DNA of 33,062 nucleotides from Oligoflexia bacterium (GTDB lineage Bacteria > Bdellovibrionota > UBA1018): the NCBI GenBank assembly GCA_014376785.1, contig JACMQW010000027.1, forward strand, positions 1-33,062, read 5' to 3'. Within the stretch, counting starts at the first letter, position 1. The number at the start of each line of letters is the position of its first letter. The position numbers and the translations under genes are program-made. Shown here piece after piece: positions 13,711-29,041 of this stretch. Under the pieces are notes generated by a model that saw only the letters and a list, made by a program, of their open reading frames with translations, was not told the origin of the DNA and made no database searches.

Positions 13711-14316
13711 ATGTCTAAGGGTCTCAGTGTCGTTGTGGGTGGTGTGGCTTTGGTGATCGTGGGCGCGGCGCTCATGTCAGCGATGCCGCGAACTTCGAAT
13801 CAAGGGTATGCTCCCACGCAGCCCATTCCTTTCAGTCACAAACTGCACGCCGGGGACAACCGAATCCCTTGTCAGTACTGTCACTCGGATGTGGAGAAGT
13901 CTCGGCATGCGTCGATTCCTTCCACGGCTGTTTGCATGAACTGTCACAAGGTCGTGAAGACGGACAGCCCGCTGATTAAGCAGGTAGCCGCTGCCTGGGC
14001 TGAGCACCGTGCGATCGAGTGGGTTCGGATCCACGAGTTGCCAGATTTCGTTTACTTCCCGCACAAACGCCACGTTGCCGTCGGAGTTTCCTGTCAGACG
14101 TGTCACGGCGAAATTCAAACCATGGATAAAGTTTATCAATTCGGCGCGCTCACGATGGGCTGGTGCATGGAATGTCACCGTGGCCGTTCGACCCCGAGTA
14201 ATGTCTTGGCGAATCTGCAGGCACGCACTGAGGCAAATCCTCACGCCGGCGAGCATGGCGAAGGTTGGGTAGAAGGACAAGTCGCTCCGACCCAATGCAC
14301 GACCTGCCATTATTAG
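13711..14316 (+). CDS. actA: Alternative complex III subunit A, pentaheme cytochrome c
   Basis: A 201-residue protein with one N-terminal membrane helix (residues about 5-24) and five CxxCH heme-c sites: CQYCH (54), CMNCH (75), CQTCH (128), CMECH (152) and CTTCH (196). One anchor plus five hemes is the known composition of ActA, which carries electrons from ActB toward the monoheme subunit or oxidase on the periplasmic side. It is the first gene of the act cluster, 24 bases before actB. Several nearby His residues (FSHKLH, FPHKRH) can serve as second axial ligands. Confidence 0.93.
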   Translation: MSKGLSVVVGGVALVIVGAALMSAMPRTSNQGYAPTQPIPFSHKLHAGDNRIPCQYCHSDVEKSRHASIPSTAVCMNCHKVVKTDSPLIKQVAAAWAEHRAIEWVRIHELPDFVYFPHKRHVAVGVSCQTCHGEIQTMDKVYQFGALTMGWCMECHRGRSTPSNVLANLQARTEANPHAGEHGEGWVEGQVAPTQCTTCHY

Positions 14317-14340: not shown

Positions 14341-17300
14341 ATGAGTGAAAATCTGAACTCAGGTCTGGAAGATAACGCAGCATTCATCCCACCGCGCCAC
14401 TGGCTGGGAGCCGAAGAGCTTTCGCCGACTTATTGGAACGATCCTAAAATTAAAGAGCGTCGTGCTCAGGAGTTTTACGACAAGCCCGTGGAGACGATCG
14501 ATCTCATCGATAAGATTGACACGAAAGGCATCAAGCGTCGGGATTTCCTGACCCTGATGGGAGCTTCGATGGCGATGGCGTCTTTTGCCTGCGCTCGTCG
14601 TCCCGTGCATAAAATTATCCCTTACGTCGTGAAGCCGGAAGAAATCACCGGCGGCATCGCCAACTACTACGCGACCGTTTGCCCAGAGACCGGTTACGGG
14701 CTTCTCGCGAAAGTGCGTGAAGGTCGCCCGATTAAGCTCGAAGGAAATCCAGATCACCCGATGAACCGCGGTGCTCTTTCTGCGCGCGGACAGGCTCACG
14801 TATTAGACCTCTACGACATGGACCGTGCGAAAGAACCGATGAAGGTCTCTCGCGGTAAAGGTTCGAAGGCGATGAAGTGGGAAGACGCAGACGCTGAAAT
14901 TTCTGCGAAACTGAAGCAAGTCGCCGCTGGCTCTGGCCGGATTCGGGTCCTCTCGGGTCGGATACTTGGAGACACCACTGAAAAACTGATGGGCGAATTT
15001 GTCGGCGCTTTTGCGGCCGGCGCTCACATCCAATTTGATGATGCGGTCATGGATGATCTGGCCACAGGGCAAGCCGAAAGTTATGGCACCGCCGTTATTC
15101 CTCATTACCGATTTGACCTTGCGGAAACCGTTCTCTCTTTGGGTGCTGATTTCTTGGGAACTTGGGGACCGTCCGAAGAATTCTCCGCCGACTGGGTGAA
15201 GAATCGCATCCCTGATCCGAAAAATCCGAAAGAAGCCAAACTTTCAAAACTCTTTGTCGTGGAAACGATGATGAGTGTGACCGGCGCAAATGCCGATGAG
15301 CGCTTTCCGGTCCGTCCGGATGGCGTTCTAAAAGTGGCCGCTGCGATCGCGGGCGAAGTCGCACGCAAGAAAGGAATTTCGGTTCCTTCTCAGCTTGCAG
15401 GATATTCTCTGGCAACCGTCGCAAATGACACCGGTGTTTCTGCGAAAAAAATCACGGAAATTTCGGACGCACTCGTCGCTTCCGGCTCCGGAAAAAGCTT
15501 AATTGTCGCCGGCGGGTTGTCTTCGAAAACCGAAAATGCGGTTGGACTCCAAGTCATTGCGAATTTCTTGAATTCGACCCTTGGAAACGACGGTTCGACG
15601 GTTGATGGCAACGGTCGTGCTTCGACCAAAGTCGGAAGCCGCACTTCAGAGCTTTCAAAACTGACGATGGATATGAACCGGGGAGCAGTGGACGCGTTGA
15701 TTATTTCAAACGCAAACCCACTTTTCTCCATTCCTCGTTCTCTCGGTTTTGCTCTCGCGATGGCAAAAGTTCCTTTGGTCATCGTGATTGGAGACCGCGA
15801 AGATGAAACGGTAAAGTTTTCAGATTACCTTCTTCCCGATCACCATTTTCTCGAAAATTGGGGAGATGCCCAACCTCGGGGGGGCGTGGTCGCCCTTCAG
15901 CAGCCGACGCTTGCACCGATTCACTCCTCACGCGCCCTCGGCGACACGCTTCTGACTTGGATCAAATCTGCGGATCTGAAAGCAAAAGGCCTAGCCGGTA
16001 CCGTCGCGCGTGCCGAAGAGGGAAAAAACACCTGGCACGATTATCTGAAGGCGAATTGGAAAGAGACTTACGCCAAAGGGGCTTCGTTTGAAGGATTTTG
16101 GGAAAATTCGCTTCGCGACGGAGTTCTGAAAAATACAGCGACCAAGAGTGGTTCGAGCCGTGCGTTCCGCTCTGGATCTTTCACTCAGGTTCCTTCTTTT
16201 CGTCCTGCTTCGACCGGATTCAGTCTCGCACTGTATTCGAAAGTCGCAATCGGCGACGGAAACCGCGCGAATAATCCATGGCTCCAAGAGATGCCGGATC
16301 CCGTCACCACGTCGACTTGGGATAACTATTTGAACATGAGCCCGAAAGCGGCCGAAAAACTCAGCATCAAACAAGATGATGTCGTGGAGTTTACTTCCGG
16401 ACCGGTTTCGATGGATCTTCCCGTGAATATCCAGCCGGGTCTTCACGAGGGAGTTGTCGCCGCTGCGATCGGTTATGGCCGGGAAGCTGCCGGTAAAGTG
16501 GGGAACGGCGTCGGTCGTGACGTAAAAATTTTCGTCGATACCGCGACGATGGCTTATTCCGGTGCGGCAGTGACGGTTAAAAAAACCGGCCGCCGCTATC
16601 AGCTCGCGATCACGCAGTGGCATAATTCGTCCGAAGATCGTCCGATCGTCAACGACATCACGCTGGCTGAATTCAAAGCGAATCCGAAGACGGCTAACCA
16701 CACCGACCCGCACCTCCGCATGGAAGAAGTTCCGACTATGTGGGAAAAGCATAAATACCCAGGCTACCGGTGGGGAATGACGATCGATCTGAACGCTTGT
16801 ACCGGTTGCGGATCTTGCATCATCGGCTGTCAGGCCGAAAATAATATCCCAGTCGTGGGACGAGATAACGTTCGCAAGTCTCGTGAAATGCACTGGATCC
16901 GGATTGACCGGTACTACAGCGGATCTCCGGAAAATCCGGACGTGATCTTCCAACCGATGCTCTGCCAACACTGCGAAAATGCTCCTTGCGAGACGGTTTG
17001 TCCTGTTCTCGCAACGGTTCACGACGATGAAGGCATGAACTCCCAGATTTATAACCGCTGCGTGGGAACGCGGTATTGCCAGAACAACTGCCCTTATAAA
17101 GTTCGAAGATTTAATTTCTTCGATCATTGGAAATCTTACGAAGGCACAATGAACCTCGCTTGGAATCCAGACGTGACCGTCCGGACGCGTGGGATCATGG
17201 AAAAGTGCACCTTCTGCGTGCAACGCATTCGTGATGTGAAAGACAAAGCGAAAGACGAAGGGCGTAAGGTTCGCGAAGTCGAATTGAAAACGGCTTGTCA

Positions 17301-17514
17301 GCAAACTTGTCCGACGGACGCGATCACTTTCGGAGACATCAACAACCCCGAAAACACGGTCACAAAACTTCGCAAAGATGCCCGCGCCTTCCGGGTGCTT
17401 GAAGTCTTGAATACTGTCCCTGCTATTTCCTACCTTTCGAAGGTACGAAATAAAGAAGGCGAAAAGCACCACGGCGGAGAAGCCGCCGCAAATGGAGGTG
17501 AGCACCATGGGTGA
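14341..17514 (+). CDS. actB: Alternative complex III subunit B, molybdopterin oxidoreductase-like Fe-S protein
   Basis: A 1057-residue periplasmic subunit. A Tat-type signal, KRRDFLTLMGASMAMASFAC, starts at about residue 65 after the N-terminal extension typical of ActB. Residues about 90-750 form the molybdopterin-oxidoreductase-like part, which in known ActB proteins binds no molybdenum cofactor. The C-terminal ferredoxin part has four Cys groups: CTGCGSCIIGC (820-830), CQHCENAPCETVC (from 875), CVGTRYCQNNC (from 907), and CTFC (956) with CQQTC (986); in the family these hold three 4Fe-4S and one 3Fe-4S cluster. The C-terminus is His- and Gly-rich. The gene ends inside actD (8-bp overlap), leaving no room for actC. 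Confidence 0.95.
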   Translation: MSENLNSGLEDNAAFIPPRHWLGAEELSPTYWNDPKIKERRAQEFYDKPVETIDLIDKIDTKGIKRRDFLTLMGASMAMASFACARRPVHKIIPYVVKPEEITGGIANYYATVCPETGYGLLAKVREGRPIKLEGNPDHPMNRGALSARGQAHVLDLYDMDRAKEPMKVSRGKGSKAMKWEDADAEISAKLKQVAAGSGRIRVLSGRILGDTTEKLMGEFVGAFAAGAHIQFDDAVMDDLATGQAESYGTAVIPHYRFDLAETVLSLGADFLGTWGPSEEFSADWVKNRIPDPKNPKEAKLSKLFVVETMMSVTGANADERFPVRPDGVLKVAAAIAGEVARKKGISVPSQLAGYSLATVANDTGVSAKKITEISDALVASGSGKSLIVAGGLSSKTENAVGLQVIANFLNSTLGNDGSTVDGNGRASTKVGSRTSELSKLTMDMNRGAVDALIISNANPLFSIPRSLGFALAMAKVPLVIVIGDREDETVKFSDYLLPDHHFLENWGDAQPRGGVVALQQPTLAPIHSSRALGDTLLTWIKSADLKAKGLAGTVARAEEGKNTWHDYLKANWKETYAKGASFEGFWENSLRDGVLKNTATKSGSSRAFRSGSFTQVPSFRPASTGFSLALYSKVAIGDGNRANNPWLQEMPDPVTTSTWDNYLNMSPKAAEKLSIKQDDVVEFTSGPVSMDLPVNIQPGLHEGVVAAAIGYGREAAGKVGNGVGRDVKIFVDTATMAYSGAAVTVKKTGRRYQLAITQWHNSSEDRPIVNDITLAEFKANPKTANHTDPHLRMEEVPTMWEKHKYPGYRWGMTIDLNACTGCGSCIIGCQAENNIPVVGRDNVRKSREMHWIRIDRYYSGSPENPDVIFQPMLCQHCENAPCETVCPVLATVHDDEGMNSQIYNRCVGTRYCQNNCPYKVRRFNFFDHWKSYEGTMNLAWNPDVTVRTRGIMEKCTFCVQRIRDVKDKAKDEGRKVREVELKTACQQTCPTDAITFGDINNPENTVTKLRKDARAFRVLEVLNTVPAISYLSKVRNKEGEKHHGGEAAANGGEHHG
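17494..17499 (+). promoter_or_regulatory. Ribosome binding site of actD within actB
   Basis: GGAGGT stands seven bases before the ATG at 17507. It decides the actD start over the in-frame ATG at 17492, and it shows that the actB/actD junction is a normal coupled gene boundary. Confidence 0.7.
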
Positions 17515-18160
17515 TCCATCCGTTTACACGCCGGTAACGAAAACAGCCAAAGCTCCCGTTCTGGCGGGAGTGGTGGGTTTTTTTGAAAATCCTCAGTCGC
17601 TCATGGAAGCGACCAAGAAACTGCGCGAAGCAAACTATCAGAGCTTCGATGCTTTCAGCCCTTTTCCCATTCACGGGCTAGAGAAGGCGCAAGGGTTGAA
17701 GCGGTCGGCTCTCCCGTTCGTGACGATGGGCGCAGGGCTGACCGGATTTATGTGTGCAGTTTTGCTCCAAGGTTGGACGAGCGTTGTGAGTTGGCCGCTG
17801 AACGTCGGTGGAAAGCCGTACTGGTCTTGGCCTGCGTTTGTTCCGATTTTCTTTGAGTTGACCGTGTTGTTCGCAGGACTCGCTACGGTAGCGGGAATGT
17901 TAATTGTGAATGGCCTGCCGAATTTGAACAAACGGGCGTTTGATAACAACATCACTCGAGACCGTTTCGCATTGATGATTGATGCGCCGAAATTAAAGAC
18001 CGCAGAAGAACTCGGCGATATGGACGACGATGAGATTCTGAAATACCGGACACGTTTAGCAAAATTTAAGGCCTTCGAAGAATCAGAAGCGAAAAGTTTC
18101 TTAACCAATCTCGGGGCAATCGATGTGAAAGCTGTCGAGCAGCGGGGATGGTTCGAATGA
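17507..18160 (+). CDS. actD: Alternative complex III subunit D (DUF3341)
   Basis: A 217-residue membrane protein of the DUF3341/ActD family. The N-terminal cytoplasmic part contains LAGVVGFFENPQSLMEATKKL and a DAFSPFPIHGLEKAQGL block characteristic of ActD. Two membrane helices follow (around residues 68-88 and 108-134), then a charged C-terminal tail. ActD is a structural subunit without cofactors. In other organisms it follows actC, but here it follows actB directly. The stop overlaps the actE start (ATGA). Confidence 0.93.
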   Translation: MGDPSVYTPVTKTAKAPVLAGVVGFFENPQSLMEATKKLREANYQSFDAFSPFPIHGLEKAQGLKRSALPFVTMGAGLTGFMCAVLLQGWTSVVSWPLNVGGKPYWSWPAFVPIFFELTVLFAGLATVAGMLIVNGLPNLNKRAFDNNITRDRFALMIDAPKLKTAEELGDMDDDEILKYRTRLAKFKAFEESEAKSFLTNLGAIDVKAVEQRGWFE

Positions 18161-18711
18161 ATAAACAATTCATGAGTGCGCTGCTCATCGCGCTTTCGCT
18201 CATCACTCTTTCATCTTGCGGGAAACACGAAAAGCCTCACTTCATCTACATGCCTGACATGTACTGGACGAAGGGTTTGAAGTATCAGCAACCTGGAATG
18301 AAACCTCCTGTGCCAGGCACGATTTCTCGCGGTTATTATCCGATGCCAGTAGCAATGACTCTCGAAGAAGCAGGCAAAGCGTATCCGAACCCTCTGCGGG
18401 CAACCGCAGCGGTTCTAGCGCGTGGCCAGCACGTCTTTAATAATAACTGCATCGTCTGTCACGGGCCCGGGGGAGAAGGGGACGGCTACATCGTTCCGAA
18501 ATACCCTCGTCCGCCGTCTCTCCTGAGTGATAAGATCCGAAATTACGCAGACGGAAACATCTACCACGTCATCACGAATGGTCAGAATCTGATGAGTTCG
18601 TACGCGGGCCAAATTCGCCAGGAAGATCGCTGGGCGGTTATTCATTACATTCGGGCTCTTCAGCGTGCAAAAAAACCGACCGCTGCAGATTTGAAAACAG
18701 TCTCGAATTAA
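18157..18711 (+). CDS. actE: Alternative complex III subunit E, monoheme cytochrome c lipoprotein
   Basis: This 184-residue protein has a lipoprotein signal (MNKQFMSALLIALSLITLSSC, Cys21 as lipidation site) and one heme-c site, CIVCH at 98-102, followed by GPGGEGDG. The methionine ligand is probably in the NLMSSYAGQI region. It matches ActE, the lipid-anchored monoheme subunit that passes electrons on to a soluble or oxidase-bound cytochrome c. ATG 18157 overlaps the actD stop; actF begins 30 bases downstream. Confidence 0.92.
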   Translation: MNKQFMSALLIALSLITLSSCGKHEKPHFIYMPDMYWTKGLKYQQPGMKPPVPGTISRGYYPMPVAMTLEEAGKAYPNPLRATAAVLARGQHVFNNNCIVCHGPGGEGDGYIVPKYPRPPSLLSDKIRNYADGNIYHVITNGQNLMSSYAGQIRQEDRWAVIHYIRALQRAKKPTAADLKTVSN

Positions 18712-18741: not shown

Positions 18742-19953
18742 ATGGCCCAAGGTCACACCGACAATCACTCCACTGAAATTAAAAACCCAGGCAGCTGGAA
18801 GCTTGAGTCCTCTACGCGGGGGATTTTCATTGGGATGGCCGTCGTCGGAATCGTAGGGTTGGTCGCTTCGATCATCCTCTCGCCGGTTCGTGGCTGGTCC
18901 GCGCTTCTGATGAATCACTTTTTCTTCATGAGCCTTGCGCTGGGCGGGCTATTCATTACGTCCATCCAGTACGTGACGAATGCGATGTGGTCCGCACCGG
19001 TGCGGAGGATTGCAGAGAGTTTTTCGGCCTATCTTCCGGTTGTCCTTGTTGGTTTCCTGATCATCTGCCTTGGAATTCCGCACCTTTTCAGTTGGTCGCA
19101 TTCGGAAATTGTTCAGGGTGATCCCGTGCTCGAACACAAAGCATCCTATTTGAACGTGACGTTTTTTGTGATTCGCAACTTGGTGGCGATCGCAGTCTGG
19201 TTTCTGCTGGGCAGAAAATTGGTCGGTAATTCCGTAGCTCAGGATGCGGATGGTAACCCCGTTTACACACTTCGTAATCGGGTGCTTTCCGGTGCCTTCA
19301 TCGTTCTGTTCGCTTTGACCTACACCATGTCGTCAATCGATCTTCTCATGTCTCTCGATCCGCATTGGTTTTCGACGATGTTCGGAGTCTATGCATTCGC
19401 AGGACTCTTTACGTCATCCCTCGCACTCCTCACGATTTTTACGATCGTGCTCCTGAGAAAAGGATTGCTCAAAGGGATTGTGAACGACAATCATCTTCAT
19501 GATTTGGGCAAGTTCATGTTCGCCTTCACGATTTTCTGGGCCTACATCGCATTCTCCCAATACATGTTGATTTGGTACGCGAACCTTCCGGAAGAAACGA
19601 TGTACTTCATGCACCGTTTCGACGGCGGCTGGAAGGGGATTACGATCTTCCTTCTCCTCGGAAAATTCTTAGTTCCTTTTTTCGCCCTTCTGCCACGCGA
19701 GGCTAAGCGCGATGCCGGTCGACTAATGAAAGTCGCGATCTGGATTCTTTTCGCTCAATGGATCGATCTGATTTGGATCATCCAGCCTGAGTTTTTCAAA
19801 GACGGGCCTAAGATTGGATTTCCGGAAGTGGCGGGACTCTTGGCTTTCGGCGGGATCTTCTGTTTGATGGTTACTCGGTTTCTCGGGACGCATAACATCG
19901 TTGCGATTAAAGATCCGAAGCTTGCTGAATCCGTTCTTCATCATCATCAGTAA
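18742..19953 (+). CDS. actF: Alternative complex III subunit F (NrfD-like membrane subunit)
   Basis: A 403-residue polytopic protein with about ten membrane helices. The block NHFFFMSLALGGLFITSIQY, followed by TNAMWSAPVRRIAESF, is characteristic of ActF, the smaller of the two NrfD-like ACIII subunits. TYTMSSIDLLMSLDPHWFSTMFGVY is another family block. AGGAAG stands six bases before the ATG. ActF and ActC are related. I call this ActF from its motifs, its length (ActC is nearer 450-480 residues) and its place at the end of the cluster. The C-terminus ends in HHHQ. Confidence 0.9.
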   Translation: MAQGHTDNHSTEIKNPGSWKLESSTRGIFIGMAVVGIVGLVASIILSPVRGWSALLMNHFFFMSLALGGLFITSIQYVTNAMWSAPVRRIAESFSAYLPVVLVGFLIICLGIPHLFSWSHSEIVQGDPVLEHKASYLNVTFFVIRNLVAIAVWFLLGRKLVGNSVAQDADGNPVYTLRNRVLSGAFIVLFALTYTMSSIDLLMSLDPHWFSTMFGVYAFAGLFTSSLALLTIFTIVLLRKGLLKGIVNDNHLHDLGKFMFAFTIFWAYIAFSQYMLIWYANLPEETMYFMHRFDGGWKGITIFLLLGKFLVPFFALLPREAKRDAGRLMKVAIWILFAQWIDLIWIIQPEFFKDGPKIGFPEVAGLLAFGGIFCLMVTRFLGTHNIVAIKDPKLAESVLHHHQ

Positions 19954-22240: not shown

Positions 22241-23161
22241 CTAGCGGGTCAGGTGTTGGATCAGGTAAATCGACCAGAGATCCGCAACCACCGCTCCGAT
22301 GAAGCCAATCAGCGAGAAGTTAATCCATAGGAAAAACCGGAGCCAAAACTTAGAAGTCGGATCGACGACCTGTTCGCCTCCGCGCGCGAAATGACGAAGC
22401 TCCCAGAGAAGCTTCGCACTTAAAAGAATGGCCACGGCGAGGTATCCCGATCCCACCGGCAGGAAGAGGGGGGCGCCCAAAGCGAGGCCGCAATAAGCGA
22501 GGCACCATACGACGATGTGGCCGATCGTCAGCTGTGTTCCTCGAGCTACGGGAAGGGTGGGCACTCCGCCTTTCAAATAGTCATCGGTAAAGCGCAGAGC
22601 CAGTACCCAGAAATGGGGCATTTGCCAAAAAAAGAGAATGAAGAAAAGATAGATTCCACCCGGCGCGAAAACCTCACCGCTTGCGGATGCATACCCCATT
22701 AGAATAGGGAGTGCTCCCGGCAGGGCGCCCGGGATCGCAGCAAACGGCATCGTCCGTTTCCACCAAAGCGTGTAAAGCAGGTTGTAAGAAAAAACAGCGA
22801 GCGCCCCTAGGATCACTAGATTCCAAGAAAGGGTAGCGAGCAGCGCTAAGCCGATGATTACCGTAAGGCAAGAAAAGATCAGCACGTGTCTTTCGGAAAT
22901 CCGTCCGGAAGGTAGGGGTCTCTTTGCCGTGCGAGGCATTCGGGCATCCATCTCTCGGTCTTGCCAGTGGTTGAGTGCGCTCGATCCTGAAGCCACAAAA
23001 AGAACACCGAAGAGAGTGACGACCAGTCGCCCCCAATTCATCGGTTGTTCAAAGGGGTGGCCCGCAAGGTACCCGCCTAAAACACTGATCAGGACGAGGG
23101 CGACGATACCCGACTTCGAGAGCTCGCGGTAAATCGAGAAAGTGGATCGGAAAGGGTGCAT
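22241..23161 (-). CDS. cyoE: Heme O synthase (protoheme IX farnesyltransferase)
   Basis: A 306-residue UbiA-family inner-membrane prenyltransferase that adds a farnesyl group to heme b to make heme O, the precursor of heme A for the neighbouring caa3 oxidase. The first Asp-rich motif is NHWQDREMD (64-72), followed by ARMPRTAKRPLPSG. The second is RFTDDYLKGG (about 190-199), then PTLPVARG. About eight or nine membrane helices are visible. It is divergent from the SCO gene, with 104 bases between the starts. The heme A synthase gene (ctaA) is not in this window. Also named ctaB. Confidence 0.95.
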   Translation of the reverse strand: MHPFRSTFSIYRELSKSGIVALVLISVLGGYLAGHPFEQPMNWGRLVVTLFGVLFVASGSSALNHWQDREMDARMPRTAKRPLPSGRISERHVLIFSCLTVIIGLALLATLSWNLVILGALAVFSYNLLYTLWWKRTMPFAAIPGALPGALPILMGYASASGEVFAPGGIYLFFILFFWQMPHFWVLALRFTDDYLKGGVPTLPVARGTQLTIGHIVVWCLAYCGLALGAPLFLPVGSGYLAVAILLSAKLLWELRHFARGGEQVVDPTSKFWLRFFLWINFSLIGFIGAVVADLWSIYLIQHLTR

Positions 23162-23265
23162 CTCTTTCGAATTACCTTAGTCTGGACCGCCTTTCCACGG
23201 AGTTATCTGAAGCCGGATGAAAACGGAGAGTGTTTTTCGTCATCAGCAGGAGTAAAAAGACGCGT

Positions 23266-24138
23266 ATGAAAACTCACCGGAATCGGAAGCTGAAAGAACT
23301 CTTCGCTGCAGGTCTGGTTATTCTAATGGGATGTTGTGCTCTTCCCATCGTTGCTAGCGCCGACGGGTACGTGAATGCGAAAGCAGTGGGTAATCAAACC
23401 CTTTCGGAAAAGGGACCGGATACCAAGGGAATCGGGATTACTGAAAAATTAGGGGATTCGATCGATCTGAATTTGCACTTCTCCGATGAGACGGGAAAGA
23501 CCGTTCGACTGGGAGAATTCTTTGAAAAAAAGAAGCCCGTCATCGTTAGTATGGCGTACTACCAATGTCCAATGCTGTGCGGCATTGTCTTGAACGGGTT
23601 AGTGGATGGCATGAAGGGCATGAGCTGGGTGGCCGGAAAAGAGTTCACGCTGGTGAATGTGAGCTTCGACCCGCGAGAGAAACCAACGCTCGCGGCGACC
23701 AAAAAAAAGAACCTCATCGAAGCGCTCGGAAAACCCGAAGCAAGCAGCGGCTGGCATTTTTTGACCGGTGAGGAGAGTCAGATTAAAACTCTCGCAAGCC
23801 AGTTAGGATTCGGTTATCGTTGGGATGAAAACGAAAAGCAATTTGCGCATGGCGCGGGCATTTTTGTCCTGACTCCCGAAGGGAAACTCTCCAGAGTCCT
23901 CTACGGAATTCAGTACAGGCCGTCCGACTTGCGTCTATCGCTCCTCGAGGCTTCGAACGGAAAAGTAGGGACGATTATCGATCGAATCGTACTTTTTTGT
24001 TACAGCTACAACCCGAAAATGCGTCAGTATTCCGTGACGTTAACTCGGATTGTTCAATTGGGCGCAGTCGTAACGATGTTGATTTTGGGTGGGTTCATTG
24101 CGGCTTCTTTGAAGCGGGACCGCCGCAGCAGTTCTTAA
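23266..24138 (+). CDS. SCO1/SenC-family copper chaperone
   Basis: About 290 residues with an N-terminal signal or anchor sequence (residues about 10-31) and a thioredoxin-like SCO domain. The copper ligands are CPMLC (Cys101 and Cys105) and His195 (FAHGAGIFVLTPEG). A C-terminal membrane helix (about 262-281) anchors it in the inner membrane. SCO proteins deliver copper to the CuA site of subunit II, and coxB starts only 13 bases downstream. I prefer ATG 23266, preceded by AGGAG at 23248-23252, over the GTG at 23230. Confidence 0.9.
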   Translation: MKTHRNRKLKELFAAGLVILMGCCALPIVASADGYVNAKAVGNQTLSEKGPDTKGIGITEKLGDSIDLNLHFSDETGKTVRLGEFFEKKKPVIVSMAYYQCPMLCGIVLNGLVDGMKGMSWVAGKEFTLVNVSFDPREKPTLAATKKKNLIEALGKPEASSGWHFLTGEESQIKTLASQLGFGYRWDENEKQFAHGAGIFVLTPEGKLSRVLYGIQYRPSDLRLSLLEASNGKVGTIIDRIVLFCYSYNPKMRQYSVTLTRIVQLGAVVTMLILGGFIAASLKRDRRSSS

Positions 24139-24151
24139 TACGGAGTGGGTT

Positions 24152-25177
24152 ATGCTAAATCAGATCTACACCAAGGGAGCCGGGTTACCATTACAGGGTT
24201 CCGACGTGGCCGTCGCCTGGGATGGACTTTATTGGTTCCTCTTTTGGCTGAGTGTCTTCTTTTTTGTCCTAGTGGTTGGCGGGATGATTTATTTCGCGAT
24301 CGTCTATCGCCAGCGCGAAGGAAAGAAAGCAAAATACATCGTCGATAATCACTTGCTTGAAGCGACTTGGACGGTCATCCCGACGGTTCTGCTTCTGGTG
24401 ATTTTCGCTTGGGGCTGGAACGTCTACAAGCGCATGGTCCAGCCACCTTCCGACGCAATGGAAGTCCGAGTGATCGGGAAGCAGTGGCTCTGGAATTTCC
24501 AATATGAAGACGGACGACTCGAGACCAATAAACTCGTTGTCCCGATTCATAAGCCGGTAAAACTTCTGATGACGTCTGAAGACGTTCTGCATTCTTTTTT
24601 CATTCCGAACTTCCGCGTGAAGTCGGACGTCGTTCCCGGCATGTACACGACCGTTTGGTTCGAAGCGAAAGTTCCGGGCGAGCACCAAGTTTTCTGTACT
24701 GAATACTGCGGAACCTCTCACTCCGGTATGCTCGCTAAGATCGAAGTCCTTGAACCGGCTCAGTACGAACTTTGGAAGGCGAACAAGCCTTATACCTTGA
24801 GCGGTGTGAGAACCATTTCCAGCGATATCTTCGCGGCTAGACGAGCGGCTGGGGAAAGCACTCAACTGAAGTCTGAAACGATTCCACTTCCCGAGCAGGG
24901 GAAGAAACTCGTCGAAGCGAAAGGTTGCACCGCTTGCCATTCCGCGGATGGTTCTGCTCGCATCGGCCCGAGCTACAAAGGAATTTTCGGGCATGAAGCC
25001 GAGCTGGCCAACGGTGAAAAGGTCACCGTTGATGAGAATTACATTTCCGAATCGATTCGGAAGCCGCAAGCAAAAGTGGTCAAAGGCTTTAACCCGGTCA
25101 TGCCTCCTTACACGAAGGAAATGATCAGTGAGACTGAGATGAATGCGATCATCGCTTACATCAAAAGTCTAAAATAA
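24152..25177 (+). CDS. coxB: Cytochrome c oxidase subunit II with fused cytochrome c (caa3 type)
   Basis: This 341-residue subunit has two N-terminal membrane helices (about 25-48 and 70-90), then the CuA domain: HSFFIPNFRVKSDVVPGMY and FCTEYCGTSHSGM (Cys182 and Cys186) with the ligand His and Met. A C-terminal cytochrome c domain carries CTACH at 259-263, with the Met ligand near VMPPYTKEM. The fusion defines a caa3-type oxidase, which accepts electrons directly from a donor such as ACIII. CGGAG precedes the ATG. The stop codon falls within a short tandem repeat that fills the gap to coxA. Confidence 0.97.
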   Translation: MLNQIYTKGAGLPLQGSDVAVAWDGLYWFLFWLSVFFFVLVVGGMIYFAIVYRQREGKKAKYIVDNHLLEATWTVIPTVLLLVIFAWGWNVYKRMVQPPSDAMEVRVIGKQWLWNFQYEDGRLETNKLVVPIHKPVKLLMTSEDVLHSFFIPNFRVKSDVVPGMYTTVWFEAKVPGEHQVFCTEYCGTSHSGMLAKIEVLEPAQYELWKANKPYTLSGVRTISSDIFAARRAAGESTQLKSETIPLPEQGKKLVEAKGCTACHSADGSARIGPSYKGIFGHEAELANGEKVTVDENYISESIRKPQAKVVKGFNPVMPPYTKEMISETEMNAIIAYIKSLK

Positions 25178-25235: not shown

Positions 25236-26858
25236 ATGTCACACTCCAACACCGCAACTCTGTCGAACGAAATTCACGGTGATAACTACCTCAACCATTC
25301 CAAGGGACTGAAGTCTTGGCTGACCACGCTCGATCACAAGCGGATCGGGTTGATGTACTTAGCGACGGTCCTTTTCTTCTTTTTGTTGGGCGGGATTTTC
25401 GCCCTCATCATGCGGCTGAACCTGATGAGCTACGGGCATCCGGTAGTCGACGCAAACACCTACAACAAGCTGATGACTTTTCACGGCGCGATCATGGTGT
25501 TTCTCGTGATTATTCCGGCCATCCCGGGAGCGATTGGTAACTTCGTACTCCCGATGATGTGCGGAGCGAAAGATGTCGCGTTCCCGCGGTTAAACCTCGC
25601 ATCATACTACATCTATCTGTTCGGAGCGCTTTTCGCGACCGCGGCCTTAATTGGTGGTGGAGTGGATACGGGCTGGACCTTTTACACTCCTTATTCGATT
25701 CGGACTTCGGGTCCTGTCATTCTGGTGCTTCTCGGTGCATTCATCGCCGGATTCGCTTCCATTCTGACCGGCTTAAATTTCATCGTCACATTGCACAAGC
25801 TTCGGGCTCCCGGTCAGAGTTGGTCGCGGCTCCCTCTGCTTTGTTGGGCGCTCTATGCCACGTCGATCATCCAAGTGCTTGCTACTCCGGTGCTTGCAAT
25901 CACTCTGGTGCTTTTGATGATGGAGCGCGTATTCAAAATCGGAATTTTCGATCCGGCTCTGGGCGGAGATCCGATTCTATTCCAACACTTCTTCTGGTTC
26001 TATTCCCATCCGGCCGTGTACATTATGATTTTGCCGGCGATGGGCGTCTTCTCTGAAATCATTCCGGTCTTTTCTCGAAAGCCGATTTTCGGTTATCGAG
26101 CGATCGCACTGGCTTCGTTCGGAATCGCTTTGGTTGCCTTCATCGTCTGGGGTCACCACCTTTTTGTGTCGGGCCAATCCGAACTCGCAAACTTTATCTT
26201 TTCGCTGCTTACGATGTTCGTCGCGGTACCGACCGGCGTGAAAGTGTTCAGTTGGGTCGGCACTATGTACAAGGGTTCGATTCGCTTTAATGCTCCGATG
26301 CTTTATGCATTCGGATTTATCGAGCTATTCACCATCGGCGGTCTCACGGGAGTGTTTCTCGCAACGCTCGCGATCGACGTCCACATGACGGATACCTATT
26401 TCGTCATTGCTCACTTTCACTATGTGATGGTCGGCGGCTCGATCATGGGTCTCGTGGGTGGGATGCACTACTGGTTCCCAAAGGTTACCGGACGCATGTA
26501 CAACGAAACGATCGCAAAGTGGTCTTTCGGCTTCATCATCTTCGGATTTAACCTGACTTTCTTTCCCCAGTTCATTGCGGGTTCTCAGGGTATGCCGCGC
26601 CGTTACTGGTCTCAGCTGCCCGAGTTCGATCTCTGGAACCGACTCTCAACCGTAGGCTCTTGGTTCTTGGCCGTGGGATTTGTGATGGTCGCATACGACA
26701 TGATTCGCAGTGCCCGGAAGGGACCGATTGCCGGTCCGAATCCTTGGGAGGCTTTGACCCTAGAGTGGCAGACACCTTCGCCTCCTCCGCATGAGAACTT
26801 CATAGAAACGCCCGTCGTGACTTCTTGGCCCTACGAATACAAGCCTTCTCGAGGATAA
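25236..26858 (+). CDS. coxA: Cytochrome c oxidase subunit I, A2-type
   Basis: A 540-residue heme-copper oxidase catalytic subunit with twelve or so membrane helices. Heme a ligand His83 is in [10 protein letters not shown]. The CuB and cross-linked Tyr site is YSHPAVY (256-262), with CuB His pair HH (307-308, WGHHLF). HFHYV (393-397) holds the heme a3 and second heme a ligands. The YSHPxVY sequence in place of GHPEVY lacks the helix-VI Glu and is the mark of A2-type oxidases such as the Rhodothermus and Thermus caa3 enzymes. The stop overlaps the first ATG of coxC. Confidence 0.98.
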
Positions 26859-26863
26859 TGAAA

Positions 26864-27517
26864 ATGTCTCAACCTCTTAACACCACTGGCGTTCATCACC
26901 ACGCTCATCACTTTGATAGCGCGGACCACGAGTTCCAAGCCTCGAAGCAGGGGATGTGGATCTTCATGGTGACCGAAGTTCTGATGATCGGCGCGATTTT
27001 CGTCGGTTATCTCATCATGCGTGCTCGCTACCCGGAGGCGTTCCATGAAGCACACAAACTTCTGAACGTGAAGCTTGGGGCATTAAACACAGCGGTGCTG
27101 ATTCTGAGTTCCTACACCATGGTGCGTGGAGTGAGTGCCGCTCAGCGCGGGAATAACAAGCTCACGATCCGCATGCTCATGACGACGATCGCCCTAGCGC
27201 TCGTCTTCTGCGTCGTGAAATACTTCGAGTATTCGCATAAAATTCACGAGGGGACGTTGCCAGGGGGGAACTACACCTACGCTGAACTTTCCATGCCTCA
27301 TGTGCCTTTATTCTTCTCTTTTTACTTCATCATGACCGGGATTCACGCTTTCCACGTTCTCGTCGGAATCGGATTGATGACCTGGATGATTAAGCGAGTG
27401 AAGAGTGGAGAAATCACCCCAGAGTTCTTCACTCCTGTCGAGCTCGTCGGATTTTATTGGCACTTCGTCGACTTAGTTTGGATCTACCTCTTTCCACTGC
27501 TCTATTTGCTTGGATAA
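26864..27517 (+). CDS. coxC: Cytochrome c oxidase subunit III
   Basis: This subunit of about 217 residues has five membrane helices. Family blocks include KQGMWIFMVTEVLMIGAIF, ITGIHAFHV-like TGIHAFHVLVGIG, and the C-terminal VELVGFYWHFVDLVWIYLFPLLYL. The N-terminus is His-rich (VHHHAHHFD). Length is that of the short five-helix form usual beside caa3 subunit I. GAGGA at 26851-26855 is eight bases from ATG 26864; the ATG at 26858 that overlaps the coxA stop is only two bases from it and less likely. Confidence 0.96.
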   Translation: MSQPLNTTGVHHHAHHFDSADHEFQASKQGMWIFMVTEVLMIGAIFVGYLIMRARYPEAFHEAHKLLNVKLGALNTAVLILSSYTMVRGVSAAQRGNNKLTIRMLMTTIALALVFCVVKYFEYSHKIHEGTLPGGNYTYAELSMPHVPLFFSFYFIMTGIHAFHVLVGIGLMTWMIKRVKSGEITPEFFTPVELVGFYWHFVDLVWIYLFPLLYLLG

Positions 27518-27556: not shown

Positions 27557-28495
27557 ATGGCTGATCAGAAAAATACGAACCATCCACAGACCGGGCATGA
27601 GCCAGACGTGAACGCAAACCAAGGCGATCACGGACATTACATTTTACCGGATAGCGTCGCATTGAAGACACTGCTCGCGCTCGCGGGGCTGACGATCATC
27701 ACGGTCGGTTTATCTTACGTTCACCTGGGGCCATGGAATTTCGTGGTCGGAATGATTGTCGCGACGATTAAAGCGGCATTGGTTGCGGGCATCTTCATGA
27801 ACTTGAAGCATGATGACCGCGCGAACGCGGTGATCTTCGGGAGTGGATTTCTTTTCTTAGGGATCTTCTTTTGTCTCACCGCACCGGATGCCTTATTCAG
27901 GGGCGATGTTTATGTAAACGGACGCCCACTCACTCTGCCCGTGAAGGGAGTCGCGAAGTTTAAAAAGGCGTGGGAACCCACTCCGGAGATCGTGGCTCAC
28001 GGTAAAGCACTTTTTGCACAAAACTGCGTGACTTGTCATGGCGAGGCCGGTCTGGGAAATGGTCCGGCCGCTGCAGCATTGAATCCTAAACCGCGGAATT
28101 TTACGGCCGATGTCGGTTGGAAAAACGGCCGTCATCCAGCCGGAGTGTTTAAAACCTTGAAGGAAGGGATTGCGGGTGGCGGGATGGCTTCTTTCGCAAC
28201 TCTGCCGGCCGAAGATCGCTGGTCACTCGCCCATTACGTGATTTCGATTGGTCCGAATGTCGTGAAAGACACGAATGCGGATCTTGCAGCCGTTGGGATT
28301 GCGGATCCTACGAAAGAGGAGACCGGTTCAGACGAAACTCCTTCCATTCCCGTGAATCGCGCCATGGAGTTTATTGCAAATGAAGAGGCCGCCTCTGGAA
28401 CGGGTTCTGCAAACGTGAAAGCAGGGGTTGGTCAGTCCGATCTCAGTGGCTACGATCGTCGCCTCGAAGCCCATACTTTTGCTCCGTCGCTTTAG
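27557..28495 (+). CDS. Oxidase subunit IV-like protein fused to cytochrome c
   Basis: This 312-residue protein joins two parts. Residues about 28-115 resemble the bacterial oxidase subunit IV: three membrane helices with VGMIVATIKAALVAGIFMNLKHDD, the family's hallmark. Residues about 145-235 form a class I cytochrome c domain with CVTCH at 157-161, GLGNGPAA after it, and a likely Met ligand in GGGMASFATLP. The last 70 residues or so are acidic, low in hydrophobics and unassigned. It closes the cox operon. The second c-type heme on the oxidase could be an entry point or relay from ActE, ActA or a soluble donor; this role is an inference. Confidence 0.85.
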   Translation: MADQKNTNHPQTGHEPDVNANQGDHGHYILPDSVALKTLLALAGLTIITVGLSYVHLGPWNFVVGMIVATIKAALVAGIFMNLKHDDRANAVIFGSGFLFLGIFFCLTAPDALFRGDVYVNGRPLTLPVKGVAKFKKAWEPTPEIVAHGKALFAQNCVTCHGEAGLGNGPAAAALNPKPRNFTADVGWKNGRHPAGVFKTLKEGIAGGGMASFATLPAEDRWSLAHYVISIGPNVVKDTNADLAAVGIADPTKEETGSDETPSIPVNRAMEFIANEEAASGTGSANVKAGVGQSDLSGYDRRLEAHTFAPSL

Positions 28496-28519
28496 GCCTA
28501 TTTTCCTGAGAGCATTTTG

Positions 28520-29041
28520 ATGTCTATCCGAATCGGTATGATGGCCCCTGAGTTCAAAACCAAAGCTTACGTTGGCGGAGACTTTAAAGACGTCGCTTTG
28601 AAAGATTATCAGGGGAAATGGGTTTGCCTGTTTTTCTACCCGATGGACTTTACGTTTGTGTGCCCGACTGAAATCTTAGCCTTCAGTGAGCTTGCTCCGA
28701 AATTCAAAGAAGCCGGCTGTGAAATGCTCGCTTGTTCAACCGATTCTCATTTCGTTCACAAAGCATGGTTTGAGCGAGACCTCGCGGCAGTGAAGTTTCC
28801 CGTGCTCGCCGATTCGAATCACGAGATTTCGAAGGCTTACGGGGTCTTGCTTGAGAATGAAGGCATCGCGCTCCGTGGAACGTTTTTGATCGATCCTAAA
28901 GGCGTGCTAAAGCACATGTCCGTGAACGCCCTCGATATCGGCCGCTCACCGGATGAGACTCTCCGCACTCTCCAAGCCGCGAAAACGGGCGAGCTCTGCC
29001 CAGCGAATTGGAAGCCTGGCCAAGCCACTCTCAAAACCTAA
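28520..29041 (+). CDS. Typical 2-Cys peroxiredoxin (AhpC/TSA)
   Basis: A 173-residue cytoplasmic thiol peroxidase that reduces hydrogen peroxide and organic peroxides. The peroxidatic Cys48 lies in FYPMDFTFVCPTEILAF, and the resolving Cys is in GELCPANW near the C-terminus. The active-site Arg is in LRGTFLIDPKG. I chose ATG 28520 over the TTG one codon before. It follows the oxidase operon by 24 bases and shares its stop with the next gene's ATG (TAATG), so it may be expressed with either or both. Confidence 0.94.
   Translation: MSIRIGMMAPEFKTKAYVGGDFKDVALKDYQGKWVCLFFYPMDFTFVCPTEILAFSELAPKFKEAGCEMLACSTDSHFVHKAWFERDLAAVKFPVLADSNHEISKAYGVLLENEGIALRGTFLIDPKGVLKHMSVNALDIGRSPDETLRTLQAAKTGELCPANWKPGQATLKT

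Follow-up and report, generated by a model that had tools for sequence, protein, structure and literature searches.

The question raised by this locus is what a cytochrome c would do on subunit IV of a caa3-type oxidase whose subunit II has a cytochrome c domain of its own, and whether it could pass electrons to the oxidase from ACIII, whose genes lie upstream. The locus belongs to an Oligoflexia bacterium (contig JACMQW010000027.1 of assembly GCA_014376785.1), and the window denotes here the whole stretch of DNA analysed, 33,062 nucleotides long. The initial annotation had read the gene as an oxidase subunit IV fused to a c-type cytochrome, and had taken the tethered second heme to suggest a built-in relay from ACIII.

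The fused gene and the clusters around it

Subunit IV and a class I cytochrome c were confirmed to be continuous in one frame (Table 1), and a domain search of the two halves matched each to the family that the initial annotation had named for it. In the N-terminal half (residues 28-115), COX4_pro PF03626 covered residues 37-104 (48.2 bits, curated cut-off 28.9) and TIGR02229 (caa3_sub_IV) residues 29-113 (55.3 bits, curated cut-off 37.25), while in the C-terminal half, which carries the CVTCH motif, Cytochrome_CBB3 PF13442 covered residues 146-228 (47.5, cut-off 27) and Cytochrom_C PF00034 residues 146-229 (42.7, cut-off 21.3). Three transmembrane helices were predicted in the subunit IV half by hydropathy and by an AlphaFold2 model (40 aligned rows, mean pLDDT 77), which was confident for the cytochrome c domain, weak in blocks at residues 111-130, of low confidence in the linker and mostly so in the tail. 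The domain was assigned to class I by its CxxCH, the cytochrome c fold of the predicted model and a distal Met, the role of Met210 being presumed from class I cytochromes c. The tether, from R115 to the first heme Cys, measured 39-47 residues in 39 of the 40 rows and 55 in the remaining one.

Table 1. Features of the window (positions within the window; residue numbers are those of the fused protein unless CoxII is concerned)
Feature	Position	Strand	Basis
ActA, pentaheme cytochrome c of ACIII	13711..14316	+	5 CxxCH
ActB of ACIII, molybdopterin-like and FeS	14341..17514	+	profile matches
ActD of ACIII	17492..18160	+	PF11821, 195.3 bits
ActE, monoheme cytochrome c of ACIII	18148..18711	+	position and clade
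ActF of ACIII	18742..19953	+	position and weak match to ActC; no Pfam match
CtaB-like heme o synthase	22241..23161	-	name given from the sequence; used as BLAST query
Sco/SenC copper chaperone	23230..24138	+	profile match
CoxII	24152..25177	+	CuA domain and own heme-c motif CTACH (residue 259); TIGR02866, PF00116, PF00034
CoxI	25236..26858	+	TIGR02891, 679.8 bits (cut-off 670.75); YSHPAVY motif
CoxIII	26825..27517	+	match confined to positions 76-256 of 258 in the COX3 model, its later part
Subunit IV and cytochrome c fused gene	27557..28495	+	ATG start, 312 aa, stop included, no internal stop
Subunit IV domain, residues 28-115	27638..27901	+	PF03626 and TIGR02229 above cut-off; predicted helices 32-54, 60-84, 88-114
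Flexible linker, residues 116-142	27902..27982	+	low pLDDT; length kept among aligned rows
Class I cytochrome c domain, residues 143-232	27983..28252	+	PF13442/PF00034; fold match 6h5l_B
Heme attachment motif CVTCH, residues 157-161	28025..28039	+	Cys157, Cys160 and His161 invariant in 40/40 rows
Met210, expected distal heme ligand	28184..28186	+	invariant in 40/40 aligned rows
C-terminal tail, residues 233-312	28253..28492	+	second CxxCH here in 11/30 fused proteins

Fold matches of the cytochrome part, which took up the fold listing, were found with 6h5l_B (Z 13.9, rmsd 1.9, 97 residues), CcoP 8snh_G (Z 11.2, rmsd 2.0, 93 residues) and ActE 6lod_E (Z 10.0, rmsd 4.2, 105 residues) and, among the matches listed, the closest solved one by sequence and by fold was the Kuenenia HAO-complex cytochrome. 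CcoP of the cbb3 oxidases resembles the fused protein in its membrane anchor with one or more tethered c hemes as well as in this fold; however, the fused protein fell far below the TIGR00782 cut-off (34 vs. 179.95 bits) and was rejected as a member. Membership of cytochrome 579 was rejected too (NF033864, 42.9 bits against a cut-off of 280), as was an ActE identity of the fused domain, which lay outside the separate branch formed by the 10 ActE rows (SH-aLRT 96, 97 columns).

Moreover, dN across six pairs was 0.12-0.24 for the cytochrome, 0.20-0.33 for subunit IV and 0.42-0.66 for the tail, with dS mostly saturated; judged by these rates, the cytochrome domain is constrained at least as much as subunit IV, and the tail evolves faster than any other part of the protein. 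A genome-wide profile search gave no second PF03626 match in the own genome, and no repeats were found inside the fused gene. In a scan for promoters and terminators, promoter-like sites numbered 3, against 4.7 expected, and terminator-like ones 13, against 8.7. In the plasmid collection, 29 records matched the fused protein, none covering 80% of the query; the 20 of these 29 that were listed hit the cytochrome part and mostly fell within cytochrome c/FTR1 iron permease genes.

The genes follow the order ACIII-Sco-CoxII(c)-CoxI-CoxIII-IV, with the fused gene last and directly 3′ of CoxIII, as in the other fused loci mapped. The oxidase was assigned to the caa3 type by a CoxI of the A family and a CoxII with both a CuA and a cytochrome c domain. 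Since one heme-c motif lies on CoxII and another on subunit IV, the oxidase would have two tethered c hemes, a prediction already made in the initial annotation and in agreement with the motifs. The fused protein is like the known caa3 subunit IV (TIGR02229/PF03626) in its matching residues 29-113, its three predicted helices and its gene position after CoxIII, but unlike it in that the unfused frames of the phylum, among the matches listed, mostly have about 90-150 aa and stand alone. Likewise, subunit IIc of caa3 oxidases (CoxII with a C-terminal cytochrome c) also tethers a cytochrome c to an oxidase subunit, and the window encodes one as well, whereas its second tethered heme is on a different subunit and the CoxII cytochrome domains form a branch of their own (SH-aLRT 95). 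About 20 bases after the fused gene lies a peroxiredoxin gene (AhpC-like, named by eye; 28517-29041), matches to which also occurred near the fused gene in four other loci (L183, L191, L199 and L200).

The ACIII set ActA-ActF was present, with A, B, D, E and F in the window and ActC on another contig, where an intact protein of 467 aa is encoded (L112:1252-2655; G000:C51). Its gene is missing from the usual place between actB and actD, which overlap at 17492-17514 of the window. The actC gene was also away from the cluster in G001, G003, G023 and G025 (in G025 on the same contig, more than 400 kb off), beside actF in G022 and in the normal place in G004, while no ActC was found in G020.

Distribution of the fusion and of its second heme

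A full-length fusion was found in 51 of 368 genomes of the window's phylum, including the own genome, when a profile of 30 aligned fused proteins (A1, which includes the window's) was required, among the matches listed, to match from position 20 or earlier to position 262 or later; each of the 51 was one open frame in the fetched locus. These genomes belonged to families f1-f8 of the window's class and to f20 and f28. Two further phyla had the fusion in 10 of 46 and 5 of 5 genomes (frames checked), and none was seen among 195 genomes of Archangium's phylum at E 1e-20, where the four longest frames matching subunit IV (L223-L226) had no CxxCH. The best 38 records of the named collection with the fusion (L032-L069) were all MAGs, and the two sets of fetched loci overlap in organisms, their counts being kept apart. 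The fusion is thus common to relatives in several bacterial groups and not a one-off, and chance or misassembly as the source of the fused frame was ruled out by its full-length conservation across those 51 genomes. The survey proposed in the initial annotation, of how often the fusion occurs next to ACIII, found it usually, though not always, beside ACIII genes. On a CoxI tree limited to loci with a CoxI frame of at least 450 aa, the fused and unfused states needed 6 changes (one of them at L156, cut by a contig end), which is compatible both with one origin followed by losses and with several origins.

The tail, described in the initial annotation as acidic, of about 70 residues and with no recognised domain, was only mildly acidic (13 D/E against 6 K/R in residues 232-312). 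Nor did the notion of a mystery domain hold: in 11 of the 30 fused proteins, the region aligned with it runs on to a second heme-c motif. Those 11 have 338-389 aa and 13 others are shorter (261-288 aa), while in the remaining six, the window's included, the tail is a loosely shared stretch around Y..R(L/V). No remnant of a second heme domain was seen in the window's tail on inspection of the alignment by eye. As read from this alignment, the window's tail is a weakly conserved, mildly acidic stretch where the second heme domain is missing.

In the heme-domain tree, which has few columns, one branch (SH-aLRT 90) held the second heme domain of 19 among 20 fused proteins, drawn from several families and from two phyla, and also that of the free cytochrome of Zixibacteria. 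According to a program warning, the Zixibacteria row joins another long branch here and may be falsely placed; 18 of the 19 grouped together at SH-aLRT 89. This single branch suggests an early origin of the second heme in the fused proteins, with several later losses, one of them in the window's lineage. On the CoxI tree, the two-heme and one-heme states needed 9 changes, so repeated gain or transfer of the second heme may account for the pattern as well. In family f23, subunit IV is followed by a shrunken cytochrome domain, which keeps CTACH in L148, while in L149 and L150 the CxxCH of the first heme motif is gone and the end of the fold is still conserved.

ACIII and free cytochromes in relatives

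ActD was found in 48 of the 51 fused genomes of the window's phylum, those giving no match (G009, G054 and G044) being 86, 84 and 72% complete, respectively. Cytochrome b (PF00033) was unmatched in 47 of the 51, and none of the four matches was convincingly bc1: G001, and weak ones in G012, G036 and G363 (9e-16 to 2e-12; two of them lie in frames some 700 aa long). The match in G001 (C14:4248-4802) contains 7 in-frame TGA, looks mitochondrial and is likely a contamination of the MAG; the other two genomes of the genus had no match. Given that ActD is nearly universal and bc1 nearly absent, these fused genomes appear to have no quinol:cytochrome c reductase other than ACIII. An instructive exception is G019, a genome of the window's family that is 98% complete, with no ActD match, an unfused subunit IV and a bc1-like cytochrome b-c frame, in which cytochrome b is joined in frame to cytochrome c (L154:6070-7575, 502 aa). 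A strict rule is opposed by G035, where act-cox linkage goes with a cytochrome b and with a subunit IV that is not fused.

Neither the presence of ACIII nor the absence of bc1 could be kept as a marker of the fusion, because the unfused family f11 (Bdellovibrio-type) mostly had ActD and matched cytochrome b in only 3 of 66 genomes; bc1 absence is therefore not specific to fused genomes. In those f11 genomes for which ActD and cox genes were both listed, the two lay far apart (e.g. G209, 3247643 vs. 3455660). Linkage was then counted over 81 loci, from which five cut by contig ends (L156, L158, L170, L185 and L199) and seven without a subunit IV BLAST hit were dropped, and act genes lay within the fetched stretch in 47 of 50 fused loci vs. 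4 of 19 unfused ones, with L235 entered as lacking act genes although its contig starts at CoxII. On the CoxI tree, however, the association between act-cox linkage and fusion came down to three independent pairs (sign test, P 0.5-1), so that kinship alone could explain it. In this comparison, linkage would fit the fusion better than ACIII presence or bc1 absence does, with no significance after the correction for kinship. Furthermore, act and cox genes were linked beside an unfused subunit IV in L153, L070, L223 and L224, and the fusion occurred with no act genes nearby in L195 and L202; hence neither the fusion nor the linkage needs the other.

Where Bdellovibrio-type and other relatives have an unfused subunit IV, a separate gene for a monoheme cytochrome c (180-205 aa) opens the cox operon, and Sco, CoxII, CoxI, CoxIII, IV and CtaB come after it. 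This arrangement was found in L143, L144 and L163, in L145 and L146 together (across a contig break) and in L147 (IV by PF03626 only), while no free cytochrome c of this type was recognised next to the cox genes in 41 mapped fused regions of the window's phylum, several of which are cut by contig ends. The free protein is of the same domain class as the fused domain and sits in the same operon, but it is encoded by a separate gene and has an N-terminal hydrophobic segment of its own (by eye). A descent of the fused domain from this free cytochrome was not supported, since the heme-domain tree (97 columns, 202 rows) gave no supported sister relation of the two.

Other clusters distribute their hemes differently. 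In the Zixibacteria locus L071 (2 CxxCH) and in L240, L241 and L242 (3 CxxCH each), a free multiheme cytochrome separates the act genes from a CoxII that has no heme motif; the CoxII of these four loci has 229-277 aa, and the heme seems to be placed on a separate protein instead of CoxII. In L097 (5321-7063), a cytochrome with 3 CxxCH and an OmpA-like end (by eye) lies between actF and coxII. In the phylum of five genomes, the clusters L094, L236, L237 and L238 carry extra free cytochrome genes, either next to the fused one or in the interval from actF to Sco, and so exceed the window's cluster in their number of tethered or free c hemes. The idea that each cluster has a single cytochrome module, whether free or joined, accordingly fails in that phylum, where the fusion is not a stand-in for a free cytochrome.

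A proposed tethered relay and its alternatives

A tethered relay from ACIII to the oxidase is the best explanation of the fused gene, to which we give a probability of roughly 0.57. A monoheme class I cytochrome c joined in frame to caa3 subunit IV would be held by its three-helix half in the membrane with the oxidase core. From the topology of the subunit IV family, and because the charged LKHDDR loop between helices 2 and 3 suits the inside, the C-terminus would exit on the periplasmic side, where c hemes attach, and would hold the cytochrome by a tether about 40 residues long. The subunit IV heme would be reduced by the last heme of the ACIII next to it (on ActE or ActA) and would in turn reduce the heme c or CuA of CoxII, so that electrons would reach oxygen without a diffusible cytochrome c. 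In this role, the fused domain would substitute for the free cytochrome c with which the cox operon of relatives begins, and would act like the extra mobile heme domain of Flavobacterium ActA. The fusion, its conservation, its gene surroundings and, within the window's phylum, the rarity of bc1 in genomes that have it are direct results of the analysis; we infer heme insertion, the topology, the presence of the protein in the purified oxidase and the donor and acceptor of the subunit IV heme; the relay is deduced from the gene order, the presence of ACIII and the free counterparts in relatives. Overall, the fusion probably wires two respiratory enzymes directly together.

In the parts of the literature available, ACIII and caa3 of Rhodothermus associate, ACIII feeding caa3 directly with ActE near subunit IIc (PMC5928083), while in Flavobacterium the mobile sixth heme of ActA was proposed as the shuttle to aa3, with ActE dispensable (PMC8552683), and ACIII contacts the oxidase via CoxIII, whose first two helices are missing (PMC8361435). 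The CoxIII of the window resembles that of Flavobacterium, as described in the accessible text of that report, in that the start of the COX3 model is unmatched. Given these published arrangements, a heme on a tether of about 40 residues could swing between ACIII and CoxII. As far as the available parts of PMC8552683 and PMC5928083 go, the ActA heme of Flavobacterium johnsoniae is likewise an extra tethered heme proposed as an ACIII-oxidase bridge, but it sits on ACIII and replaces the cytochrome domain of subunit II, whereas ActA of the window has 5 CxxCH and the extra heme is on subunit IV. A survey of fused COX subunits listed COX2-cytochrome c, COX1-3 and COX1-COX4 and, in the part available, made no mention of subunit IV with cytochrome c (PMC4013037); no description of such a fusion was found in the titles, abstract openings and text passages of the literature searched, which covered few subscription papers.

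Several points weigh against the relay: the mere three independent pairs behind the association with act-cox linkage, the loci in which fusion or linkage occurs without the other, the scarcity of bc1 in unfused f11 as well, the heme-domain tree without a supported sister relation of fused and free domains, the free cytochromes kept beside the fused gene in the phylum of five genomes and the domain that f23 keeps after the loss of CxxCH (L149 and L150). The last two each favour a different alternative. The tethered cytochrome might serve as a port through which other dehydrogenases or soluble cytochromes c of the periplasm deliver electrons, with ActE feeding CoxII directly. ActE is encoded in the window and, in the portion of PMC5928083 available, is reported as the direct donor to caa3 in R. 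marinus; being already a plausible donor to CoxII, it may make the extra heme of subunit IV dispensable. Fused genomes without act genes next to cox (L195 and L202), the extra free cytochromes of L094 and L236-L238 and the nearest solved match, among the matches listed, to the Kuenenia HAO-complex cytochrome point the same way, yet ActD in 48 of 51 fused genomes and the absence of cytochrome b in 47 of 51 speak against such a port, which we regard as unlikely.

Less probable still is that the domain mainly holds an ACIII-oxidase supercomplex together or aids assembly, electron transfer being minor. The fold kept in L149 and L150 after the loss of CxxCH, beside the CTACH of L148, would agree with such a scaffold, as would the III-IV contacts of known supercomplexes, which, in the accessible part of PMC8361435, involve subunit III in Flavobacterium and CtaE/CtaF in mycobacteria. 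Against it stand the invariance of Cys157, Cys160, His161 and Met210 in all 40 rows and the second CxxCH of 11 among the 30 fused proteins. It is hardly credible, finally, that the protein is not part of the oxidase or that the frame is an assembly error joining two genes: no support for either was found in this analysis, and both are opposed by one-frame fusions in three phyla (51/368, 10/46 and 5/5 genomes), by the gene position directly after CoxIII in the mapped fused loci and by the fact that this is the sole PF03626 match of its genome.

For the tethered relay, the handover from ACIII to the oxidase is where the finding matters, as it is unsettled in the available parts of the reports, with ActE the proposed donor in Rhodothermus (PMC5928083) and dispensable in Flavobacterium (PMC8552683). 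Subunit IV would be a third place for a bridging heme, and the natural one-heme, two-heme, heme-less and unfused versions offer a comparative series for finding which face of the subunit meets ACIII and for testing whether a tether replaces diffusible cytochrome c. A match to subunit IV can, moreover, hide a redox subunit, which is a warning for annotation. We put forward only tentatively, as possible rather than probable, a stronger form in which caa3 makes up an obligate unit with ACIII, apparently the sole quinol:cytochrome c reductase of these lineages, as a hard-wired chain with a cytochrome c of one or two hemes permanently on subunit IV. If this is true, the fused protein would be on the side of the oxidase what the mobile ActA heme of Flavobacterium is on that of ACIII, the repeated gain, loss and decay of its hemes would record how much relay each lineage needs, and its cytochrome would be the tethered form of a cytochrome c that other lineages have as a free protein or as part of a separate multiheme protein.
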